In this document: positions 2,410 through 64,000 of the stretch, one piece after another | How the letters are laid out: every line of letters starts with the position of its first letter | Position numbering within the stretch: position 1 is the stretch's first letter | NCBI GenBank assembly: GCA_028867735.1 | Contig: JAGWFW010000002.1 | Span: 1 to 64,000 of the forward strand | Direction: 5' to 3' | Length of the DNA stretch: 64,000 nucleotides | Source: Nitrososphaerota archaeon | GTDB taxonomy: Archaea > Thermoproteota > Nitrososphaeria > Nitrososphaerales > Nitrosopumilaceae | Made by a program: the position numbers and the translations under genes | Notes under the pieces: generated by a model | Seen by the model: only the letters and a program-made list of their open reading frames with translations | Database searches by the model: none | Told to the model about the DNA's origin: nothing

Positions 2410-3690
2410 ATGATAATTCGAAATTTCAAGCAACTCGCATCGGATAGTGATAAAAAACTGGCATTGAAAATTATTGAACGGGGTCTTGCAGCTGCTATGC
2501 CAAAAGATTCGCTTGACAGAATTGTCAGATTCTCGCACCTGCAAATAGGACGCAAAAGGTTGTCTCTCGGAGAATATGGCCGTATCCATGTAGTTGCCAT
2601 TGGCAAGTCGGCAGATCTGATGACAAAAGTAGTGGATTCTCGTACCAGACTACACGGCGGAATTGTGGTGATCCCCCGCAGCACACATTCCATGGTTAGC
2701 GGGAAAAAATTCACAGTATTACAGTCAAGCCATCCGATTCCAACTGCAAAAAGCGTCATTGCAGCAAGGAAGATTGTTGGCTTTCTCAAGTCACTTGACA
2801 CGACAGATCTTGTCATCTTTCTGATCTCTGGCGGTGCATCATCACTTGTCACGCTTCCTGATGGGATATCGCTAAAAGACAAACGACTGGTAACTGATCT
2901 CTTGTTAAAGTCTGGGGCAAACATACGTGAGGTTAACTGCGTAAGAAAGCATCTCTCTCAGGTAAAAGGAGGAAGACTAGTCGAATCACTTCGATGCAGC
3001 GCAGTATCCCTTGTAATGTCTGACGTGGTAGGGGACGATCTCTCCGTGATTGCCTCTGGAATCACGTATTGTGACAGGTCGACTTTTTCAGACGCAAAAA
3101 AAGTCCTGTTAAAATATGATCGCAAAAATCTTGTCCCAAAACCTGTCTGGAAAAGGATTGTTCTTGGAACCAGGGGTGCAATACCAGAGACGCCAAAAAA
3201 ACCAAGGATCGAAAATTATGTGATATCTACAAACAAGACGTGCATTCATACGATGGAAAAATATGCAAAAAAACTCGGGTTTACCACAAAAACAGTCTGG
3301 CCCTTGGAAGGGAATGTGAAATCGGCTGCGTCAAAACTCTTGCGACATTTTCCAAGCCCGAATTCATGCATTGTTTTTGGAGGGGAGACTACTGTCGCAG
3401 TTGAGGGAAAAGGAAAGGGGGGAAGAAATCAAGAACTTGTCCTGAATCTGATGAAAAAACTAAAAGATCGAAAAGAAAAAGTGATTGTTGTATCTGTTGG
3501 CACCGACGGAATTGATGGAAATACGTGCGCGGCAGGCGCAATTGCAGATTCTGCAGTGCAACCAAAATCTGCAGATGCATATCTGGACCAGAATAACTCG
3601 CATTGTTATTTTAAAAAATACGGAGGAGTAATTTTCACGGGTCCTACCCACACCAACCTGATGGATATTGGCCTGATCCTACGCAAGTAA
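2410..3690 (+). CDS. Glycerate 2-kinase (MOFRL family)
   Basis: ISGGASSL, GGETTV, GGRNQE and GTDGIDG motifs; internal ATG at 2410 preferred over 2236, which overlaps the divergent gene. Confidence 0.85.
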   Translation: MIIRNFKQLASDSDKKLALKIIERGLAAAMPKDSLDRIVRFSHLQIGRKRLSLGEYGRIHVVAIGKSADLMTKVVDSRTRLHGGIVVIPRSTHSMVSGKKFTVLQSSHPIPTAKSVIAARKIVGFLKSLDTTDLVIFLISGGASSLVTLPDGISLKDKRLVTDLLLKSGANIREVNCVRKHLSQVKGGRLVESLRCSAVSLVMSDVVGDDLSVIASGITYCDRSTFSDAKKVLLKYDRKNLVPKPVWKRIVLGTRGAIPETPKKPRIENYVISTNKTCIHTMEKYAKKLGFTTKTVWPLEGNVKSAASKLLRHFPSPNSCIVFGGETTVAVEGKGKGGRNQELVLNLMKKLKDRKEKVIVVSVGTDGIDGNTCAAGAIADSAVQPKSADAYLDQNNSHCYFKKYGGVIFTGPTHTNLMDIGLILRK

Positions 3691-4062
3691 AGCAGACGCC
3701 TTGTTGTTTTTCTGATCAATTGTCTGGTATTTGATCACAAGCCTTCGCTGATCTATTAATTGCCGAATGAATCCAACCCGAGCACTCACAAATGGATCGA
3801 TGATCGTCTTATTTTTTGCAAGATGTTCGAACATTGACTTGAGATCAAGCATGACATTTACTATATCCCCATTTTTTATTATGAACCTTCCAATGCTCCA
3901 AAAAATACCCACATGCAGTGCAACGTATTTTGATTGTTCAACTGATATCTTTTCATAATAATCTTCAATGTGAATCCTGGTTTGATCTGATCTTGTTTCA
4001 TTGTTCTCAATTGTCCACGAGATCTTTTTTGTGTCTCCGTCAAAATAATATGTGTGCTCCAT
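3679..4062 (-). CDS. Hypothetical protein
   Basis: 127 aa ORF between convergent/divergent neighbours. Confidence 0.6.
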   Translation of the reverse strand: MEHTYYFDGDTKKISWTIENNETRSDQTRIHIEDYYEKISVEQSKYVALHVGIFWSIGRFIIKNGDIVNVMLDLKSMFEHLAKNKTIIDPFVSARVGFIRQLIDQRRLVIKYQTIDQKNNKASALLA

Positions 4063-50119: not shown

Positions 50120-50557
50120 TAAATAACAGACGAGCGATCCCACGATGCACAACATCTGCCATCGCTTGTAGACCGGGCGTCGCGTCATGGCAGGGTGACA
50201 AAGGCCCTTGCCGATCCCGCATACGATTCCAAGAACAACTTCTCCTATCTGTATAACAATGATATCGTTCCAGCAATCAAGGTGCGAAAGAACTCGTCTG
50301 GCAGGTCGTGTGGGTGCTATCCAAGGAAGGTATCTGTGATATCGCAGATTGGAAACTACGATTACTGGAAAGGTAGCGTAAGCTATGGAAAACGGTGGAT
50401 TGTAGAATCTGTCTTTTCTGTACTAAGGAGAATATTTGGAGAGCATGTGATGGCGCACAAACGGCAGAACATGGTAAAGGAACTGGAATTGAAGATGGTA
50501 CTGTATACCAATTTGTGTCAGCGTAGGAGGAAATTATCGTATGCACGTAACATGTAA
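50120..50557 (+). mobile_element. Transposase C-terminal remnant (IS5-like DDE), 5' truncated
   Basis: DERSHDAQHLPSLVDRASRHGRVTKALADPAYDSKNNFSYLYNNDIVPAIKVRKNSSGR...YGKRWIVESVFSVLRRIFGEHVMA; stop immediately upstream, no N-terminal half. Confidence 0.82.
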
Positions 50558-51407: not shown

Positions 51408-52259
51408 TTAGTATACGTTCTCTGAATTTGTCCAGCACAGCTCAAACAGCATGTGCATGGAGGCAATCAGTGAAGGTGAATCTGCCCACATGGCAAAAAC
51501 GTTGTGCGAAGGGTGATCGGAATTTCTGAGGAAGAACAGGACCTCGTCAGAGTCGCGAATCAGAAAACACAGGTTTCCCCATCTATTGCCTGGCATTATC
51601 CTTATCTTGTTTCTGTCTATTTGTTTTGCATGCTCTGGCATTCTCTGGGTGGGAGAAATTATCACCTTGAAATCTGCAGCCGAGCTTGATAATAATTCAA
51701 GAAAATCCGCATAATAAAATCTTGCGAAGTCCTTTTCAGTGCAAAAAAGAAATATTTCCTCCCGCGTCTGGCCTATCATGTTTTTGATCTTGCTGTTGAT
51801 TTGCGGTGTACCCTGAAGCATCTGCATCTTTTCTTTTCTTGTCTCGCTTGTCTCCACTATGAAAGCTGGAATGCCGTTCCATAATTCGGTCAGTTCCTGC
51901 TCCTGCATTGCCAGGATCTTAACTTTTTCCTGCTCGGATTTTACAAGCGTCACAATTGCATCACCAATTGGCAGTGTAGAATATCGTACGGGCGTGGAAA
52001 ATTCCGCAGTTACAATCCCCTTGTTTTGTAACGTATTGATGATAAAATATGTCTCAGTCCTTGGTATGTCAAGCGCCTTTGATGTCTCAGGCGCGCTCTT
52101 TGGGCCGTATTTGCCAAGATAGATGAATACCTTGGCCTGGTTCTGGCTCAGGCCAAACTTTAGAAGCTCTCCCTTCACCTGCTCCATCTTTGCTTTGTAC
52201 GGGTATAGTTTGGATTCCGAATCGGAGAGAAAGACTGATGTTATTTCTTGGTCCTGCAA
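51408..52259 (-). CDS. TrmB-like transcriptional regulator (copy 2)
   Basis: FGLSQNQAKVFIYLGKYGPKSAPETSKALDIPRTETYFIINTLQNKGIVTAEFSTPVRY; clearly paralogous to 47025..47885. Confidence 0.85.
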   Translation of the reverse strand: MQDQEITSVFLSDSESKLYPYKAKMEQVKGELLKFGLSQNQAKVFIYLGKYGPKSAPETSKALDIPRTETYFIINTLQNKGIVTAEFSTPVRYSTLPIGDAIVTLVKSEQEKVKILAMQEQELTELWNGIPAFIVETSETRKEKMQMLQGTPQINSKIKNMIGQTREEIFLFCTEKDFARFYYADFLELLSSSAADFKVIISPTQRMPEHAKQIDRNKIRIMPGNRWGNLCFLIRDSDEVLFFLRNSDHPSHNVFAMWADSPSLIASMHMLFELCWTNSENVY

Positions 52260-53784: not shown

Positions 53785-54321
53785 TCAAATTTGGATTTCA
53801 CTTGGATGTTCTATGCCAATTTTGAACACAGACCTGTATGCGAACTTGGTGTGTGGGGACGATGGTTTTGTAAATGCCATGTCTAGGAGCAAGTCGCGGC
53901 CAAGAAAAGCCGTGCAGCCAAGGTCTTTTTTTACTCCCCTTGAAACAAGACCGTCTACTGATTCTTTGATTTTTCCAAGTTTTTCCATTCGTGATTTTGC
54001 GTCTTCGAGGGCCTTGAAGCAAATCTCGAGTTCTCCCCTCAGCCCTATTCCGTCATAGATGAAGACTCCGCCCATGTCATGCCAGCTGCCTTTCTGGTCC
54101 TTCTTTTTTACCTGCTTTTTTTTCTTGGGGTCTGCAGGCTCGGCAATCTTTTCCCTGAGGTCGGAAAGATCTGATTCGTTGGACGAATCGTTTATTCTCA
54201 GTTTTTCTCCGATTGTCTTGGAATACTCCTCTAATCTGCGCTTTAGCTCCTCCAGATCCTTTTCTAGCGACGACTTGAACGCCATGATGTTGCGAAATGA
54301 CACTAGTTTTCCTTCTTCCAT
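53785..54321 (-). CDS. Hypothetical protein next to pilus locus
   Basis: 178 aa ORF immediately downstream of 54324..54824. Confidence 0.7.
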   Translation of the reverse strand: MEEGKLVSFRNIMAFKSSLEKDLEELKRRLEEYSKTIGEKLRINDSSNESDLSDLREKIAEPADPKKKKQVKKKDQKGSWHDMGGVFIYDGIGLRGELEICFKALEDAKSRMEKLGKIKESVDGLVSRGVKKDLGCTAFLGRDLLLDMAFTKPSSPHTKFAYRSVFKIGIEHPSEIQI

Positions 54322-54323
54322 GT

Positions 54324-54824
54324 CTAGCTGCCTGCCTTTTCAAAGTGTAGAGACTCGTTTCCTATCAGCATCTCCTCTGCGTTGGTTCCGGGAAGTCGCT
54401 TTAGTGCCTTGGTGCTTTCCCGCAGGAATGATATCTTCTTGCTCTTTGAGATTCTGTCTGACCTTGTCAGGCCTATTACCTGGGGAATCGCATACTGTAG
54501 GACTTTGGATGCTTCGTCCAGTGTGAGCTGATCAAATCTCTTTTGCTCTGATTTGTAATCGGGTTTTATTATTACGATGTCAAGGACGGGGGTTAGCGTG
54601 GCCCTTGAGTTTTCTGGAAGGTTTAGGATTCTTGGATCTAAATCAATGGAAAAACCGAGATACGCGGTGATTATCTTGAGTGAGTTGTACAGGTCGTCTG
54701 TCACGTTGGACTTTTCCTTTTCCAGCTCGTATACCTGTACTGCCTCGTCGACTAGCTCCTCCATGGACTTTACTGCAGACGCTAGGTCGTCATCGCTTAC
54801 ATTAGCTTCCGTTGACATTATCAA
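54324..54824 (-). CDS. Hypothetical protein next to pilus locus
   Basis: 166 aa ORF. Confidence 0.7.
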   Translation of the reverse strand: MIMSTEANVSDDDLASAVKSMEELVDEAVQVYELEKEKSNVTDDLYNSLKIITAYLGFSIDLDPRILNLPENSRATLTPVLDIVIIKPDYKSEQKRFDQLTLDEASKVLQYAIPQVIGLTRSDRISKSKKISFLRESTKALKRLPGTNAEEMLIGNESLHFEKAGS

Positions 54825-55087: not shown

Positions 55088-56425
55088 CTAAGGCGTTGTA
55101 ATTCCTATGAACGGGATCGTCTGGGCGTAACCTGTTCCTCCCACGCCGTATTTGTTGTTAGAAAAACTGCCAGTTATGACTACAAAACCAATGTAATCGC
55201 TACCAGAAGCTAACTGGTTAAAATTAGAATTGTTCGGACCTGTAGCAGCGAAGAAAACCGTAGTCGTCTTATTATATGGAAGTGATAGGCAGTAGTCTCC
55301 ATTACTACAACTACTTCCATATGATGTATCTGACAGGCTGGGTGAAGGACCTGGTTTAATAGTCCCAACTATCGAGAATGGTTGATTGTTTTTCTGAGCG
55401 TTTCCTGGATATTCTACAACAAAAAAGAAGATCTCACTATGTTGAGAAAGCCATAATGTAGTACCTCCGCCAGTTGAGTTGTTATTAGTCATATTGAGGT
55501 AAAAACCTGTGTTTGTGTTCCCATTCAAGGTCCAACCACTTTGCCAGTTGTTTCCTTGCGTCCACCTGAATGATTCGTATTCTAGCGTAACTAATCCGGC
55601 TGCGGAAGCAATAGCGCTATTAATGGAGTTCTGACTGACAGATACAGCTGCTACCGCCACAGTGGCCTGAACGGACTGTCCTGGATATCCATTTTTGAGC
55701 TGTGCCTGATATGCGCAATTCGTATTTGTCGCACCCGTGATGGTTATTGGCCATGAAAATACTACGCTTCCTCCAGGGGACAAGGTACCAATTTTTGCGG
55801 GTGATACCGTGCCTAGATTGCAGCTAGTGGCATTACTTGATACAAGGGAGGGCGTCTGCGGACTAACGTTGATCAACGTCCCAGTACTGTTGTTTGTCAC
55901 AATCAAAACCAATTGAGACTTGAAGCCACTTGGAACCGTTGGAGGCATAGCCATAAGCTGCAGGTTTAGAGGTGCGGTATTCGGGGAGTTGACAAAGAAT
56001 TGTTGAAAATTTCCTCTTGATGTTACCAATTTGACATTGTAGGAATTTGATTGATTAACAAACACGGGTATGTTCTGTCCTATGTTTGTCAGCACCCCGC
56101 CTGGTGCGACAAAATTGTTTGTTGGAACATAACTGTTCACCCAATCAGTTGTCGTTGTATTTTGAATCCACATTTTTGTAAACTGGATTGGAAGGCTGCC
56201 TGTATTTGCAACTGTTACGTCGAGCTTCCCATTAGGAACCGTCACGCTTGAGATCTGGAATTTTTCCTTGTCCACATCGGTCAGCTGCTGGTTTTTTACA
56301 AGAACAGACTGGTTAAAGTTGTTTAGGATTCCCATGCTGTATGAGATGTATGCTATGGTGGTTGTCAGCGCAATTATGGCAAAAACCATTCCAACTACGC
56401 TAGCAATTCCTCGTCTTGTTCTCAT
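55088..56425 (-). CDS. Large type IV pilin/archaellin-like secreted protein
   Basis: N-term MRTRRGIASVVGMVFAIIALTTTIAYISYSMGIL resembles a class III signal peptide; Asn/Thr-rich extracellular part. Confidence 0.8.
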   Translation of the reverse strand: MRTRRGIASVVGMVFAIIALTTTIAYISYSMGILNNFNQSVLVKNQQLTDVDKEKFQISSVTVPNGKLDVTVANTGSLPIQFTKMWIQNTTTTDWVNSYVPTNNFVAPGGVLTNIGQNIPVFVNQSNSYNVKLVTSRGNFQQFFVNSPNTAPLNLQLMAMPPTVPSGFKSQLVLIVTNNSTGTLINVSPQTPSLVSSNATSCNLGTVSPAKIGTLSPGGSVVFSWPITITGATNTNCAYQAQLKNGYPGQSVQATVAVAAVSVSQNSINSAIASAAGLVTLEYESFRWTQGNNWQSGWTLNGNTNTGFYLNMTNNNSTGGGTTLWLSQHSEIFFFVVEYPGNAQKNNQPFSIVGTIKPGPSPSLSDTSYGSSCSNGDYCLSLPYNKTTTVFFAATGPNNSNFNQLASGSDYIGFVVITGSFSNNKYGVGGTGYAQTIPFIGITTP

Positions 56426-56946
56426 GGAGGCGCCCCCTGTGTCGTGTATATGGAACCTCGTGCGGTAGTGACTGTAATGGTGTCAGGGCTCTTGCTCTTC
56501 CAAATTGTACCGGTTGGAAGTTCAGCCGAGATGGTATATGACTTTTGTGACAAAATACTGGCAGGAAGAGATGCTCGACTTGGAGAATAGTGATTTATGA
56601 CTGTACCATTGACCTGAATCTGGTTTACTGTAACCCCAACGGTTCCTGTATTTGTCAGAGTCACGTTTATGACGTTATTTCCATTTGTAGTGTTGCAGCT
56701 ATGGCAAAATATGATGTTTTCTATGGACAAACTCTCGGTGATTTTGTTTGTGTCGTTTGATGCCGTAGTGGATAATGCAGTTTCAAAAACCTTGAGATTG
56801 CCGTTTGACCACGCAACTAGAGCACTGCCAAGAACTGCAACCGTTGTCAGCATTAACGCTGTTGTTATAATCGTAGCCAGACCCCTTCTGCAGGAAACTC
56901 TGAACCCAGTTGGATTCTTTTTGTTGAATCTGGTAATGTCAGACAT
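56422..56946 (-). CDS. Type IV pilin-like protein
   Basis: CRRGLATIITTALMLTTVAVLGSALVAW; overlaps next gene by 4 bp. Confidence 0.78.
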   Translation of the reverse strand: MSDITRFNKKNPTGFRVSCRRGLATIITTALMLTTVAVLGSALVAWSNGNLKVFETALSTTASNDTNKITESLSIENIIFCHSCNTTNGNNVINVTLTNTGTVGVTVNQIQVNGTVINHYSPSRASLPASILSQKSYTISAELPTGTIWKSKSPDTITVTTARGSIYTTQGAPP

Positions 56947-56950
56947 GCTG

Positions 56951-57493
56951 CTAAACCGTACGTATTTTCTGTTCCTGGATTAGAGACTGGGAAGACTCAA
57001 TCTCTCTATCAGTCTGTTTTTCAGTATCTGAAACGTCATCGATTAATTTTACATCATCCAATAATTCCGTCTCGGCATGTCTTTCTTCATCCTTCTCCAA
57101 GGGTGATGTCAGGTTGCGCTGACCTGCTTTTGCAATGTCTGCCAATTTGTAGGCAGGACATGGTATCTGCATGGTCTTTGATGTTATGTATATGAATGGA
57201 AAGATCTCCTGGTAGAGAGTGTTTACCACACGCGGTATGTTTTTCTCATCATTGCCAAGACGGTCTGACATTTCCTGCGCGTTTCCATAAATCGTTGCAA
57301 ACCCATCCATGCTTATTTTTACATTTGTCGGGTTTGAGAGCAGGACAAACTTGTATTTCAGCCTGACATACCCCTCCTCGTTTTCCACCTCGTCAATTGA
57401 GGCTTCAATGTCGTATTTTGTAAAAGAACAATCATCCTTCAGCTTTGTTACCAAAAACGAGTTTATCTCTATCTTCTGATGCATTTTATACAT
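56951..57493 (-). CDS. Hypothetical protein in pilus locus
   Basis: 180 aa, upstream of pilin genes on the same strand. Confidence 0.7.
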   Translation of the reverse strand: MYKMHQKIEINSFLVTKLKDDCSFTKYDIEASIDEVENEEGYVRLKYKFVLLSNPTNVKISMDGFATIYGNAQEMSDRLGNDEKNIPRVVNTLYQEIFPFIYITSKTMQIPCPAYKLADIAKAGQRNLTSPLEKDEERHAETELLDDVKLIDDVSDTEKQTDREIESSQSLIQEQKIRTV

Positions 57494-57567
57494 GTCTAGA
57501 AAGAGTTCTGAAAACTTAACCCCCTGTCTGTAGTTTGATGGTACACATCACACATGATTAGACGCAG

Positions 57568-58593
57568 TTGCACACGAATCCTGTGAACGGCAGGGATCTT
57601 GAACCAGGACACCAAATGAAGGAGGTCAGCACATCAAAGGTAAGCAACGAGAATTTTTCGCTAAACATACAGGTATCAAAATTCAAGAAAAGCAACAGCG
57701 AGCTTTCAAAAAACTATGACATCAAAAAATATCTGGACCCGTACAGGTTCTCATTTTCATCAGATATCTCAGAGCTTATACCAAGGGATACTCCGCCGTA
57801 CCTTGACAACGGAGAGCGCTATGTGGAAAGGATTGCAAGGTCGCTTGCCTTCTTCAAGCAGTGCGCCCTTATCGGTCCGAGCGGAACTGGCAAAACCCAC
57901 ATTGTGTATCTCGTGGCAGAGCTTGGCGGACTGCCGTTATGGGAGATAAACTGCGGCCTGCAGACGTCTGTCTTTGACCTCTTTGGAAGATATGTCGGCC
58001 TTGGAAAGGAAAACTGGATAGACGGATTGATAACGTCGTGGTGCAGACATGGCGGAATACTGTATCTTGATGAGGCCAACATGATGAAGCAGGATATCGC
58101 AACAAGGCTTAACCCAATACTTGACCAGAGGGGTCACATGGTTCTGACCGAAAAAGACAACGAGGTAATCTCGCGTCACAATGATGCATTTTTGATAATA
58201 AGCATGAATCCTGTCTCGTCGGAATTTGCCGGAACAAAGCCAATCAATGCCGCAATGAGGCGAAGAATGAGTGTCTGGCTGAATTTTGATTATATGAGCG
58301 TAGGCCAGAAAATTGACGAAAAGGAGATTGATCTTGTGGAAAAAAAGGCAGAGGTAAGTAGAGATGACGCCGAAAAAATAGTAAGGGTTGGTGCTGAGCT
58401 TAGAACCCAGTACAAGTCAGGTGAGATCCCATATGGTCCTTCTGTCGGGGATTTGATAAACTGGGCCAGACTGATACATGATGGTACGCCTCTAAAAGAT
58501 GCAGCAGAAGAAACCATTGTTGCACTCACAAGCGATGACCTTGATGTTCAGGACATGGTTCGAAAGATAATACGCAAAGTAGCTGGACCTTGA
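57568..58593 (+). CDS. MoxR-type AAA+ ATPase (CbbQ/NorQ-like)
   Basis: Walker A GPSGTGKT, Walker B GGILYLDEAN, AAMRRRMSVWLNF. Confidence 0.88.
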   Translation: MHTNPVNGRDLEPGHQMKEVSTSKVSNENFSLNIQVSKFKKSNSELSKNYDIKKYLDPYRFSFSSDISELIPRDTPPYLDNGERYVERIARSLAFFKQCALIGPSGTGKTHIVYLVAELGGLPLWEINCGLQTSVFDLFGRYVGLGKENWIDGLITSWCRHGGILYLDEANMMKQDIATRLNPILDQRGHMVLTEKDNEVISRHNDAFLIISMNPVSSEFAGTKPINAAMRRRMSVWLNFDYMSVGQKIDEKEIDLVEKKAEVSRDDAEKIVRVGAELRTQYKSGEIPYGPSVGDLINWARLIHDGTPLKDAAEETIVALTSDDLDVQDMVRKIIRKVAGP

Positions 58594-60176
58594 ATCTGGA
58601 AAAGGATAATGATTTTTTTGCGTACGTGTATGATGCATTCAGCAAGTTTGCACAGAAAAAACCCGAACTGACAAATCTCAGATTCTCAAGAAAAATAGAC
58701 TATCCTCTGATAAACCGTTTACCAGAAGTGTCAATTATTATGCCTTTACCCAGATTCAAAAACGAACTATTTTTTTTCGAAGGCTTTACATTTGAAAATA
58801 CTTTGGAGCAAAGACATGTTCTCTGGTCGCTTTTTCTTGCATCACTTTACCATCTTGCCGCACATGCCGCAGTTTCCAGATATGGAATATATGAAAAATG
58901 GATGAAAAACAAGACACGTGACATTTGCATCAGGGTGATAGATTTCATTGAAGATCTGGCAGTTGAAAAATACACCATGTCGACATATCCAGAAATCTGG
59001 AAGAGCATGCTGGAAATGAACAAAAAATTTGCTGAACTGGAAAAGCATGCACCTAAAACTGGTAATTATTACAAAGCAATTATTCCAAAATCATGCAATA
59101 TCAAGAACCAAAACATGTTAAACAAAATAACGGCGTCTATAAACCAGATGGACGCAGGTGGTATCCATTATGGGGAAAAAGTATTGGAGATCGCAGATTT
59201 GCTCTACAAAAACCGCCAATTACTGCCTAAAACAAGGCTTCCGTATTGTGAATCTGATGACAACAATGCCGATATCGTGCTGCCTAAAAAAATAAACTTG
59301 AAATTTGAATTTGACGATGAATTTAGCGAAATGGCATACAAGTTGGATGATCTGTGGGAAGTAAACGAACAGTCAAGAATCAGACTCGTCAAACAATATG
59401 GACGTCATATGAAAGGTCTTCATTTTGATTCCATAGTGACATCGCAGGAAGACCTTCCAGAATTTATTCGAGTTAGGGAGAAAATACTTCCGATGCTACG
59501 ACGGATTCGCCAGCAGATACGTATGATCGTAAACCTGACAGATTCGCCAAAGATGGATGAGGTTGGGATTGTAGATATGCAAATGGCAATTCAAGCCATT
59601 GCATCAAAAGGAAGATTGACTGAAGTTTTTGAACACAATGAAGACAGGAGGGCAGAAGAGGCCTGGGTGATTTTGATAGACAAGAGTGCAAGCATGCGCC
59701 TGCGGTTTGATCATATCAAGGAATTTGCAGTATGCGTTGCAGAGGCAGCAAACGAACTTGCAGGAAGGCCTGATGCGTGGGCCATGTACAGCTTTGACAA
59801 CAACTTTCAGATCCTAAAGGATTTCAGGGAAAAGTATGGACAGAGGGTTCAGGCTAGGCTTGGAGGTCTGCAAAACAGCGGACTCTCGTTGCTGCCCGAT
59901 GCAATCGAGCTTTCATACAAAATGCTTGCTGCAGACCAGAGGGAAAAAAAGTATCTCTTTGTAATTACCGACGGACACGCTTCTGGCTATGAAAGAATTC
60001 AGGAGCATTTTTCAAAAATTGCAAAAAAAGTGGAAATATCAGGAATAACTCTGGTGGCGATAGGCGTTTCAAAAGCCACATCCAAGAGATTTCGAAACAG
60101 TGCGCGTGGAACAGACCTGAAACAACTTGTAGCCAAATTCATCACTGCTTATAGGACTGCGTCCTCTGATATGTAA
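58590..60176 (+). CDS. VWA-domain protein (NorD/CobT-like) coupled to the MoxR ATPase
   Basis: MIDAS DKSAS in AWVILIDKSASMRLRFDHIKEFAVCVAEAANEL; 4-nt overlap with AAA+ gene. Confidence 0.87.
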   Translation: MNLEKDNDFFAYVYDAFSKFAQKKPELTNLRFSRKIDYPLINRLPEVSIIMPLPRFKNELFFFEGFTFENTLEQRHVLWSLFLASLYHLAAHAAVSRYGIYEKWMKNKTRDICIRVIDFIEDLAVEKYTMSTYPEIWKSMLEMNKKFAELEKHAPKTGNYYKAIIPKSCNIKNQNMLNKITASINQMDAGGIHYGEKVLEIADLLYKNRQLLPKTRLPYCESDDNNADIVLPKKINLKFEFDDEFSEMAYKLDDLWEVNEQSRIRLVKQYGRHMKGLHFDSIVTSQEDLPEFIRVREKILPMLRRIRQQIRMIVNLTDSPKMDEVGIVDMQMAIQAIASKGRLTEVFEHNEDRRAEEAWVILIDKSASMRLRFDHIKEFAVCVAEAANELAGRPDAWAMYSFDNNFQILKDFREKYGQRVQARLGGLQNSGLSLLPDAIELSYKMLAADQREKKYLFVITDGHASGYERIQEHFSKIAKKVEISGITLVAIGVSKATSKRFRNSARGTDLKQLVAKFITAYRTASSDM

Positions 60177-60228
60177 GTGAAAAATACATACTAGATCAGA
60201 TAACCCGGTTGTTACCAATTCTGGTAAG

Positions 60229-60897
60229 ATGTTCCTTAAGACAAAGAACAGAAAGGCAATCAGTGCAGTGCTGGCAACCCTGATCATCTTGGTGGCAACA
60301 GTTGTTCTTGGAACGGGAGTTATACTGTTTGGTACAAGCCTCTTCCAGACAAACGCCCAGAGTTCGGGCCTTGCCGTACAAGGTGTTCACGTGTGGATAA
60401 ACTCGAATAGTCCTACGACATACGCTTGGGGAGCTGCAGAGATAAGAAATAGTGGAGACAAGATACTATCTGTAGATCAGATTAGTGTACGAGGTACTCA
60501 AATACCGTTTTCAAGTTGGTATTTTGACAACAACTCTACAAGAGTCACTGCTGGAAATTTCCAGTCTCAACTGATCTATTCGTCAACATCTGGTACTACA
60601 CCGGGAATGATGGAATCATACTACAGTGGGAAGGCACAAACTAGCCCGCCTCCTACTTGTCCTACGACAACAACAGCATTTGGTATCAATGAATCCACTA
60701 CGCTTGCACCAATAGTTTGCTTTTCACAAGCATCAGGCCCAATCTCATTGAAGCCGGGTGACATGGCAATCACGTACTTCAAAATTCCTAACGGAGTTTT
60801 GAGCACAGTAGATTCAGGTTCTGCAAGTAGTGTTGCATTGTATGCTGGCAACGTAGGCGCACCACAATCTATTACTGTGCAAAGCCAACAAAATTAG
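60229..60897 (+). CDS. Archaellin/type IV pilin-like protein
   Basis: MFLKTKNRKAISAVLATLIILVATVVLGTGVILFGTSLFQ. Confidence 0.85.
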   Translation: MFLKTKNRKAISAVLATLIILVATVVLGTGVILFGTSLFQTNAQSSGLAVQGVHVWINSNSPTTYAWGAAEIRNSGDKILSVDQISVRGTQIPFSSWYFDNNSTRVTAGNFQSQLIYSSTSGTTPGMMESYYSGKAQTSPPPTCPTTTTAFGINESTTLAPIVCFSQASGPISLKPGDMAITYFKIPNGVLSTVDSGSASSVALYAGNVGAPQSITVQSQQN

Positions 60898-60948
60898 GGG
60901 CCAAAAAATGGCCAAATCCCTTTCTTTTTTATTTTTGGAGGATAACAA

Positions 60949-62490
60949 ATGAAAGACAAGACAAGACAAACAAACGAGACCGAGAGCTTTCTTGCAAGTC
61001 AAGTCATTGATGAGGACCAGACAAGAATTCCTCTTGGATATGAAATCATAAAAAACTATCCATTACAGCCGCCATTTAGCTATGTCAATATACTATACAA
61101 TACCGAAAAATCAACATATCTCTATTTTGTTGATGAGTCAAAACTCAATCCAGAGGAAACAATAATTTTTCAAAAGCTGCACCGCCTCATTGAGGAAAGC
61201 CTCGAATCCATCTCTGAACTGAAGAACAGCCACAGTTTTGACGACCAGCTAGGCATGGTTCTCAAGGAAAACGAGAGGATCTTTTCAGGCAAATCAAGCG
61301 CCGGCATGGAAAAGGTAAAGTACTATCTCAGGCGCGATGTCAACGGGTTTGGCATCATAGACCCGCTAATGCATGATGTAAACATAGAGGACGTCAGCTG
61401 CAGCGGAATTGACAAGCCCATATTTATCTGGCATCGAAACTATGACAGCATTCCAACCAATATTCGATATTCATCCCATGAAAACCTAAACGCATTCGTA
61501 TCAAGAATAGTCTTTCGGGCAGGAAAGCACATCAGCTCTGCATTCCCAATCTCAGATCTTGCACTGCAGGGGAACCACAGAATATCGGTTCTTTATCAAA
61601 AGGAGGTGACCCCAAAGGGCACAAGCTTTACTATACGAAAATTCAAGGAAGACCCGTATACTGTAATTGATCTGATAAAATTTGGCACAATAAGCCTCCA
61701 GATTGCAGCCTATCTCTGGATGCTGATAGAATCAAAAATGTCATTTATAATAATAGGCGCTACCGGCAGCGGCAAGACCACAATACTGAACGCAATCACA
61801 GGACTTGTCCACCCAGATTACAAAATTTTTTCAGTAGAGGATGTGGCAGAAATTAACATAAACCACGAGAACTGGTTTACACTTGTCTCAAGAAGCGGCT
61901 TTGGTCTTGGAGGAGAGGGAGAGATTGGCATGTATGATCTTATCAAAGCCGGTGTAAGACACAGACCTGACTATATTGTAGTGGGAGAAATCAGGGGTTC
62001 TGAAGCCTATGTCATGTTCCAGGCCATGGCTACAGGACACGGTGGACTGTGTACAATGCACGCAGACAGCCTTGAATCAGCAGTAAAGAGATTGCAGCAA
62101 AAACCAATGGATATCCCACCGGCATACATATCCCTGATGAACTGCGCCGTTGTAATCAAGAGGGTAAAGGAAAATACAACAGGCCAGAGCAGCAGGCGGG
62201 CCATAACCGTATCTGAAATTGTCTCGTCAGAGTCATCACACGCGGCTTTTTCGTGGAATCCCAAGACCGATTACTTTGACGATGACCTCAAAGACAGCGT
62301 CATGTTCAAAAGAATGACAGATGCAACAGGGCGCGATCTTAAAGAAATAACAGACGAATACCAAAAACGAATCTCTATTCTAAAATGGATGCTTGAAAAT
62401 GATATTCGCAATTACAAAAAAGTGGCCGAGATAGTGGGAAAATACTATAGGGACCCAGACTCACTGATGCAGAAAATGGAAGGAGTCTGA
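60949..62490 (+). CDS. FlaI/type II-IV secretion system ATPase
   Basis: GATGSGKTTILNAI Walker A, VEDVAEI, VGEIRGSEAYVMFQAMATGHGGLCTMHAD. Confidence 0.94.
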   Translation: MKDKTRQTNETESFLASQVIDEDQTRIPLGYEIIKNYPLQPPFSYVNILYNTEKSTYLYFVDESKLNPEETIIFQKLHRLIEESLESISELKNSHSFDDQLGMVLKENERIFSGKSSAGMEKVKYYLRRDVNGFGIIDPLMHDVNIEDVSCSGIDKPIFIWHRNYDSIPTNIRYSSHENLNAFVSRIVFRAGKHISSAFPISDLALQGNHRISVLYQKEVTPKGTSFTIRKFKEDPYTVIDLIKFGTISLQIAAYLWMLIESKMSFIIIGATGSGKTTILNAITGLVHPDYKIFSVEDVAEININHENWFTLVSRSGFGLGGEGEIGMYDLIKAGVRHRPDYIVVGEIRGSEAYVMFQAMATGHGGLCTMHADSLESAVKRLQQKPMDIPPAYISLMNCAVVIKRVKENTTGQSSRRAITVSEIVSSESSHAAFSWNPKTDYFDDDLKDSVMFKRMTDATGRDLKEITDEYQKRISILKWMLENDIRNYKKVAEIVGKYYRDPDSLMQKMEGV

Positions 62491-62494
62491 TGGC

Positions 62495-63961
62495 TTGCTT
62501 TCTTTAAAGAAACTTGACCAGGCAGAATACGAAAAAAAACAGAACAAAAAGATAGAAAGGGAACTACCATATTTTATAACAATTATATCGCTTCTTGCCT
62601 CCAGCGGGTTTGGGCCATATACAATTTTACAAAAAATAAGGGAACTTAATCTTTTACCGATAATCCAAATAGAAACAATCAAGATTCTCAAACGGATTGA
62701 CCTGCTCGGAATAGACCCACTCACTGCATTAAGCGAGGCAAAAGACAAGCCGTCCTCCCGCGGTCTTGGAGAGTTTCTTGGCGGATACGTCTCTGCCATC
62801 CAAAGCGGGGGAAACGTAATCAACTATCTGAAAAGCAAGATGTCAAGCTCCTATGAAAGGCTTGAGAGTTCGGAAAAACAGTCTGTCGAGAAGCTGAGCG
62901 GAGTTGTTCACGCCTGGCTGACAATGCAGATCGTAATACTTGCAGTATTCATCCTGGTTGCAGCAATTGGTTCAAACCCAATGACAGGCTCTGGAGGAAC
63001 AAACAGCTCGCAGCCACCATATCTTCTCCTGATCTTCTCGCCTGTAATCTCTATTGCGTTTATGAAGATGGTGCAAAACATGAACCGCTCAAACATACAC
63101 GAAATTGAGATGAAAAAGTTGCTAAAGTTTCTGCTGCCTCCGTTTCTGGCAGGACTGACACTAATTGCAAGCAACGCGTTCTCAGGTCTGAGCATAAACG
63201 CCTACATCCTTGGATGCTCACTTGCTGCAGGCTCTATATGGCCTGCACTGCGATTCCAAAAGATATACGTGGCAAACCTTCACGCCGAAGCAGCGACGCC
63301 GCAGATTCTCAGGGATATCACAGAGGCAAGAAAGGCTGGCATGGGGCCTGAAAAATGCATAATACACGCATGCAAGCGTAAAGACTTCAAATCATTTAAC
63401 ATTACGGCAAATACAATTGCAAACAAGCTGGAATGGGGAATCCCACTTTCTAACATTTTCGAGTCGCTTTACAAGGAAGTCAAAAACTTTCAGGTGCTGA
63501 TTACGTTTAGGATACTGTTTGAGATAATATCTTCCGGAGGAGGCAACGTCAATACCCTTGATTCGCTTGCAGACGCCAGTGAAAAGATTCACAATATTAC
63601 CAAGACCAAGCGCGAGATGCTCCAGCCATACGTGATGGTAGGTTTTATGCTGATTATAATTACCGGATTTACCACGTTGCTGACAATAGACTCTTTTACA
63701 GATATCAATGTGGCAAAAAACCTGGTTCACAACAACAATACCCAAACATCTGGCGCGTCAGACGACCTGCTTGACGTGGTTTCAATTGCCATAATTGCCC
63801 AGGCCTGGCTTGCCGGACTCTTTATAGGAAAAATAACAAAAGGCGCGTATTCAGGCGGATTCATGTATTCGATGCTGCTTACCATGATCAGCATGGCAGC
63901 AATTGCAATGATCCAGCTTCACGTGATAAACATAGGAGCAATTTTGCAGCCTTCCAAGTGA
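62495..63961 (+). CDS. FlaJ/TadC-like type II secretion system F membrane protein
   Basis: Multi-TM, position directly after FlaI, cytoplasmic T2SSF-like helices. Confidence 0.87.
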   Translation: MLSLKKLDQAEYEKKQNKKIERELPYFITIISLLASSGFGPYTILQKIRELNLLPIIQIETIKILKRIDLLGIDPLTALSEAKDKPSSRGLGEFLGGYVSAIQSGGNVINYLKSKMSSSYERLESSEKQSVEKLSGVVHAWLTMQIVILAVFILVAAIGSNPMTGSGGTNSSQPPYLLLIFSPVISIAFMKMVQNMNRSNIHEIEMKKLLKFLLPPFLAGLTLIASNAFSGLSINAYILGCSLAAGSIWPALRFQKIYVANLHAEAATPQILRDITEARKAGMGPEKCIIHACKRKDFKSFNITANTIANKLEWGIPLSNIFESLYKEVKNFQVLITFRILFEIISSGGGNVNTLDSLADASEKIHNITKTKREMLQPYVMVGFMLIIITGFTTLLTIDSFTDINVAKNLVHNNNTQTSGASDDLLDVVSIAIIAQAWLAGLFIGKITKGAYSGGFMYSMLLTMISMAAIAMIQLHVINIGAILQPSK

Positions 63962-63963
63962 GT

Positions 63964-64000
63964 ATGTCACTTGCAAAGTCATACCGCCTCTTATATCGAC
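63964..64000 (+). CDS. Start of a further pilus-locus ORF, truncated by window end
   Basis: MSLAKSYRLLYR... open at 64000. Confidence 0.35.
   Translation, partial: MSLAKSYRLLYR

Follow-up and report, generated by a model that had tools for sequence, protein, structure and literature searches.

A five-gene module with an AAA+/VWA pair and a predicted SecB-fold protein at a type IV pilus locus of Nitrososphaerota

Type IV pili abound among ammonia-oxidising archaea; to our knowledge, neither the role nor the assembly of most of them is known. We analysed the initial 64 kb (the window) of an 82-kb contig, JAGWFW010000002.1, from the 1.65-Mb draft genome of a Nitrososphaerota archaeon of the family Nitrosopumilaceae (GCA_028867735.1). 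In this window, pilus genes surround a coupled pair of genes encoding an AAA+ ATPase and a VWA protein with a metal ion-dependent adhesion site (MIDAS). Such pairs are known from the NorQ/NorD and CbbQ/CbbO activases, which are likewise encoded by adjoining genes for a CbbQ_C-type AAA+ and a MIDAS VWA protein. NorQ/NorD remodelling works via a finger of the VWA protein in the AAA+ pore, where the NorQ motif GRXLL/IXXXXT grips the NorD finger (PMC13036017). The window pair differs from NorQ in its H2-insert and from the NorD of ammonia-oxidising archaea in the N-terminal half of its VWA protein, and its partner genes are pilus genes.

The earlier note on this DNA, made from the sequence alone, did not know MoxR/VWA pairs as a standard part of archaeal type IV pili. 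The link is already published, so the headline of that note is not new: the main text of Makarova, Koonin and Albers (2016; PMC4858521) describes a vWA (arCOG02900) and GvpN/MoxR ATPase (arCOG00441) pair as 'strongly linked' to thaumarchaeal type IV pili of subclade 4A. The window holds the same gene pair in the same kind of pilus locus and the same lineage, the arCOGs and the subclade being matched by description. The words SecB and chaperone do not occur in that main text. Beyond it, the present analysis enlarges the set to five proteins, follows it into Bathyarchaeia and adds co-occurrence across whole genomes. The SecB-fold partner, the five-gene module, its strict co-inheritance, the extension to Bathyarchaeia and the chemotaxis neighbours were not found in the searchable literature; the supplementary tables of PMC4858521 may list some of these families as pilus-linked. 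Sulfolobus Aap and Ups pili and the bindosome share FlaI, FlaJ and class III pilins with the window, and the same main text describes no AAA/VWA/SecB module at their loci.

Overall, we lean towards a remodelling machine of AAA+ and VWA proteins that would be dedicated to this pilus and act, together with a SecB-like holdase, in its assembly or quality control. What the data establish are the gene identities, the predicted fold of the SecB-like protein, the conserved linkage of these genes and their co-inheritance with one clade of FlaI.

The locus and its pilus genes

The genes are arranged in two divergent arms (window coordinates):

57568-58593, + strand: AAA+ ATPase of CbbQ/NorQ type (MoxR superfamily); Pfam AAA_5 5e-20, CbbQ_C 1.7e-15
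58590-60176, + strand: VWA protein with MIDAS, partner of the AAA+ protein; Pfam VWA 1.8e-10
60229-60897, + strand: type IV pilin-like protein, class III signal NRKA/ISAVL; relatives adjoin FlaI in Nitrosopumilales loci
60949-62490, + strand: pilus assembly ATPase of the FlaI/PilB family; T2SSE 1.5e-36; in the module-linked FlaI clade
62495-63961, + strand: membrane platform of the FlaJ/TadC family; T2SSF 2e-13; BasF/UpsF-like, scoring under the cut-offs
56951-57493, - strand: chaperone-like protein with a predicted SecB fold (AlphaFold2 and Foldseek); co-occurs with AAA/VWA
56422-56946, - strand: type IV pilin-like protein, class III signal peptide RRG/LATII; weak UpsA match
55088-56425, - strand: large type IV pilin-like protein, probable adhesin; class III signal peptide, weak UpsA match
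54324-54824, - strand: module protein h166, common to AAA/VWA genomes
53785-54321, - strand: module protein h178, predicted coiled coil and beta hairpins; placed by co-occurrence, with relatives beside other archaeal type IV pilus loci
51408-52259, - strand: transcription regulator of the TrmB family, last gene of the divergent arm

The rightward arm is compact. The AAA and VWA genes overlap by 4 bp, and gaps of 52, 51 and 4 bp separate VWA from pilin, pilin from FlaI and FlaI from FlaJ. The AAA start may be ATG at 57616 rather than TTG at 57568. The earlier note had thus correctly described a coupled MoxR-type pair about 50 bp upstream of, and in the same direction as, pilin-FlaI-FlaJ, as well as three pilin-like proteins in divergent arms. 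All three pilins of the window have a K/R-G/A motif with a hydrophobic stretch after it, as do 47/54, 54/59 and 51/52 of their relatives. Relatives of the large pilin reach 1092 aa, and one carries a laminin-G domain.

According to Pfam, the window encodes both a PilB/FlaI-type ATPase and a TadC/FlaJ-type platform, the combination by which an archaeal type IV pilus is recognised. By contrast, the 'archaellum-like' label given earlier did not hold. The window FlaI scored 364 bits against a cut-off of 550 for the archaellum motor in NCBIfam, and FlaI and FlaJ both fell under the NCBIfam cut-offs for archaellum, Ups and Bas proteins, the Sulfolobus Ups and Bas values being missed by a wide margin. 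Pfam and NCBIfam scans detected no archaellum genes among the window open reading frames (ORFs) examined around FlaI. Because FlaI and FlaJ score below these cut-offs, the structure is no archaellum but a type IV pilus of a different type.

Linkage across genomes and shared inheritance with a FlaI clade

To compare gene neighbourhoods, we used 20-kb regions holding VWA homologues, drawn from 12 other family genomes and nine genomes of other families, and added 80 loci named by organism (Nitrosotalea, Nitrosarchaeum, Nitrosopumilus, Nitrososphaera, other Nitrososphaerales and many Bathyarchaeota). Loci were scored with a profile for each window protein and were considered comparable if they extended at least 5 kb on both sides. 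VWA, the SecB-like protein, h166, h178, both pilins of the divergent arm and TrmB were present in 24/24 comparable Nitrosopumilales-type loci, FlaI in 23 and FlaJ in 22 of them. In one of the 24, from genome G075, FlaI is inverted and 18 kb away. The pair therefore stays linked to FlaI/FlaJ in relatives, as the earlier note's proposed neighbourhood check required. Among 25 loci of other groups, VWA was found in all, h166 in 22, h178 in 20, the SecB-like protein in 16 and FlaI within ~10 kb in eight.

Gene order and strand vary between these loci. In the group of L072, L075, L080 and L082, the AAA gene is parted from VWA, and one arm consists of SecB-like-VWA-pilin-FlaI-FlaJ; L118 and L125 have the order AAA-VWA-...-h178-...-TrmB-pilin-pilin-FlaI. 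That linkage is kept despite this shuffling argues against mere descent. Clustering of the other neighbours returned pilins, TrmB, FlaI, FlaJ and a KaiC ATPase as the recurrent families besides the module, and no recurrent enzyme neighbour in 100 loci. In particular, linkage to a metalloenzyme operon, which the earlier note had named as telling against its proposal, was not found among recurrent neighbours. The link between the AAA/VWA pair and the pilus is beyond chance.

We then surveyed 200 genomes of the phylum, with thresholds of >440 bits for AAA and >740 bits for FlaI. AAA passed its threshold in 22 genomes, of which 13 belong to the family of the window organism; VWA was present in these 22 as well, and there was one more weak VWA match. 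FlaI exceeded its threshold in exactly the 13 module-bearing genomes of the family. The nine module-bearing genomes outside the family each carried a FlaI that grouped with that of the window in a clade of 23 rows (support of 99 in the SH-like approximate likelihood ratio test, SH-aLRT), and the tree placed the FlaI of genomes without the module in a sister paralogue. The FlaI proteins of G075, G186 and G073 were assigned by near-identical score rather than by the tree. The neighbouring FlaI lies outside the module clade at the Nitrososphaerales loci L089, L092 and L113 and at L120; the module is thus not bound to one FlaI lineage without exception.

Strong matches to the SecB-like protein, h166 and h178 occurred in the same 22 genomes plus G106, making 23, with an additional weak h166 match in G019 (59 bits). 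The earlier note's listing of these three proteins as possible partners is supported by this co-occurrence. In G106, which also carries the pilus FlaI, the contig breaks off at the SecB-like gene; the AAA and VWA genes may thus sit in an assembly gap. Every tested module member was absent from 17 genomes of the family. On a NorQ+NorD tree of 31 genomes, presence of the module required six changes (bootstrap range 6-8), at least three of these changes being forced by well-supported branches, and all members changed together. Overall, the 200 genomes show the pair in just those genomes that have one FlaI clade, G106 with its cut contig being the sole exception.

Properties of the module proteins

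The AAA+ protein contains AAA_5 and CbbQ_C (PF08406) together with Walker A (GPSGTGKT) and Walker B (LYLDEAN) motifs, which places it in the CbbQ/NirQ/NorQ family; an arginine-finger region, RRR, is also present. Its orthologues are 57-81% identical to the window protein (n=19), and its nearest solved single-domain relatives are CbbQ and NorQ. One segment stands out:

57976-58026, + strand: H2-insert (pore-insert) segment of the AAA+ protein, residues 137-153; GRxxGLGKENWxDG, nearly invariant in 19 orthologues

Relative to the NorQ motif, the window sequence GRYVGLGKENW keeps GR but not LL or T. Midasin was considered as a special relative of the AAA protein and rejected: its 178-192 bits are a sum over six AAA domains, its best single domain scores 49.5 bits against 84.7 for CbbQ, and a NorQ control was equally inflated.

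In the VWA protein, the MIDAS (DKSAS...D) residues D364, S366, S368 and D461 are invariant in 19 aligned sequences. The closest matches in a profile search of the PDB include NorD and CobT, and the VWA domain can be aligned with that of NorD, including the KDF/KGF...RIGGL segment. A conserved segment, G326...Q335, lies ahead of the MIDAS strand, where NorD has its finger (residues 403-448), a correspondence in sequence position only. The N-terminal region is helical, without a recognised fold. An hhalign comparison with NorD of ammonia-oxidising archaea (AOA) aligned only residues 351-492 and found no NorD-like N-terminal domain. The mode of action of the pair is probably that of NorQ/NorD, applied to another client.

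The C-terminal pattern of the SecB-like protein, judged by eye and prior to any structure model, resembled that of SecB. In an AlphaFold2 model built with 49 relatives, the core (residues 1-125) had a predicted local distance difference test (pLDDT) score >90 and the order E-E-E-E-H-H, followed by a disordered, acidic tail. According to Foldseek, the top 22 PDB matches were all of SecB, Rv1957 or SP1558 type (probability 0.96-1.00, reaching 1.00 to SecB chains), with a best E of 7e-4 and a template modelling (TM) score to target of ≤0.57. From this model, we consider it very probable that the protein has a SecB fold. Among archaea, Methanocaldococcus jannaschii has a known SecB homologue, MJ0357 (cited in PMC4361572). 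The likeness to SecB, Rv1957 and MJ0357 lies in the predicted four strands, short helix and long helix. The window protein differs from these in its linkage to a pilus and in sequence: the Pfam SecB model (PF02556) did not match it and exceeded its cut-off in no genome of the phylum. Searches of Pfam, NCBIfam, PADLOC and PDB sequences with the SecB-like protein, h166 and h178 returned nothing useful.

Distant relatives of the SecB-like protein, of ~140 aa, are widespread in the phylum independently of pili, and the pilus-linked version looks like a specialised paralogue. In Bathyarchaeia, such relatives, which Pfam SecB does not recognise, adjoin genes that by eye encode ribosomal proteins S24e/S27ae:

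L157:2835-3266, L158:2744-3178 and L159:2854-3285: ~140-aa SecB-like relatives beside S24e/S27ae

For h178, the model predicted a coiled coil with hairpins, and a structure search with it returned no confident match (prefoldin at E 0.7 only). Six genomes of other groups have a distant h178 relative (~140 aa) at a distance of 1.5-4.2 kb from another FlaI gene, and in a seventh genome such a relative adjoins a pilin. This is independent evidence for a type IV pilus context of h178:

L145:2274-2699, L162:3005-3430, L163:3168-3581, L164:2893-3327 and L165:3290-3700: distant h178 relatives beside other type IV pilus loci

In L145, a Roadblock/LC7-like protein comes after the h178 relative. h166 had no Pfam or PDB match. 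In Bathyarchaeia, an h166-like domain is fused to a long coiled coil:

L203:1887-3473, L204:2190-3881, L205:1117-2727 and L206:2722-4446: fusions of an h166-like domain and a coiled coil

Possible function and neighbouring genes

We propose that one type IV pilus system (Aap or 'subclade 4A' type) has its own cytoplasmic accessory module of five proteins: a CbbQ/NorQ-type AAA+ ring, its VWA partner, a SecB-fold holdase and the small proteins h166 and h178. The VWA protein would plug the AAA+ ring, as NorD does in NorQ, and transmit motion powered by ATP to a client that sits at the pilus base or is the precursor of a pilin or adhesin. The SecB-like protein would hold unfolded pilin or adhesin chains prior to membrane insertion. 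We infer the ring-plug mechanics, the client and the effect on assembly or quality control alike. A fixed five-protein set that travels with one pilus type, and includes a SecB-like member despite the lack of SecA, suggests a chaperone or remodelling step specific to the pilus. If so, this would be the first non-enzyme client for AAA+/VWA machines, and three anonymous families become testable as one unit. The earlier note had suggested a role in assembly, retraction or quality control of this surface structure; linkage and co-occurrence strongly support a dedicated role with this pilus, which may lie in any of the three.

Several points weigh against this proposal. We know of no SecA in archaea, so the SecB-like protein would need another delivery route. 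Homologues of the window FlaI and FlaJ reportedly build pili without this module in Sulfolobales (Aap/Ups). In the profile comparison, the VWA protein shares nothing with NorD in its N-terminal half, so that NorD does not point to the client. Finally, CheY, CheD and CheC genes lie directly beside the module AAA gene in the bathyarchaeial loci L115/L203, L119, L045 and L046, with CheR, CheA, CheW, CheB and methyl-accepting chemotaxis proteins also present in L203/L115 (L203:7893-19258); these neighbours fit regulation at least as well. A stronger form of the proposal seems doubtful to us: an obligate relay from SecB holdase to AAA+/VWA remodelase, with two new helper families, in one archaeal type IV pilus, wired to chemotaxis in Bathyarchaeia. 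If true, the relay would be an ATP-driven control of pilus biogenesis or dynamics without a described bacterial counterpart.

The main alternative is that the module switches pilus activity or pilus gene expression, comparable with ArnA/ArnB of archaella, the VWA protein relaying an input and the AAA+ ring resetting it. The main text of Makarova et al. (PMC4858521) lists the pair as potential regulators by analogy to ArnB, the locus includes a TrmB regulator and often a KaiC-family ATPase, and the chemotaxis neighbours described above fit this explanation. However, chemotaxis genes are absent from the Nitrosopumilales loci, Pfam reveals neither kinase nor FHA nor DNA-binding domains in AAA or VWA, and a SecB-fold partner would be better suited to protein handling. 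We regard a switch as possible but rather unlikely. Passive hitch-hiking, in which descent of one genomic island would tie the five genes to the pilus without functional interaction, agrees with those bathyarchaeial loci whose pilus genes lie >10 kb away or on another contig. It appears improbable, as the set is kept between clades in reshuffled order and strand and all its genes were gained or lost together ~6 times within one family. Least probable, and very unlikely in our view, is a NorQ/NorD- or CbbQ/CbbO-like metalloenzyme activase that sits beside the pilus locus by chance. The structural neighbours of the AAA (CbbQ, NorQ) and VWA (NorD, CobT) proteins would suit such an activase, but the neighbours that recur in the 100 loci are the module and pilus-locus families rather than any enzyme, and presence of the pair tracks one FlaI clade. 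Moreover, AOA NorQ/NorD are a separate, paralogous gene pair at another locus, found in every family genome sampled with or without the module, and no module-bearing genome was seen that lacks pilus genes and has the pair linked to an enzyme.

Many relatives have a KaiC ATPase gene beside TrmB, but neither the window nor the following 18 kb contains one. The ORF at 50195-50557, which lies upstream of the TrmB gene, resembles, by eye, a truncated remnant of a DDE transposase. A second, distant FlaI-like ATPase lies 13 kb downstream of FlaJ (L027:14882-16552, contig ~76900), with no FlaJ homologue in the fetched stretch. Contig C235 of the same draft genome (G000) carries a second, near-identical divergent arm (AAA start, SecB-like, h166 and h178, matching at 3-113, 194-715, 2804-3292 and 3304-3813), which may reflect a strain mixture or a second copy of the locus. 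Just beyond the window, FlaJ is followed by an 897-aa secreted protein (contig ~64002-66695; L027:2003-4696) with a weak bacterial Ig-like domain and relatives in 28 loci, a probable surface or adhesin part of the pilus.

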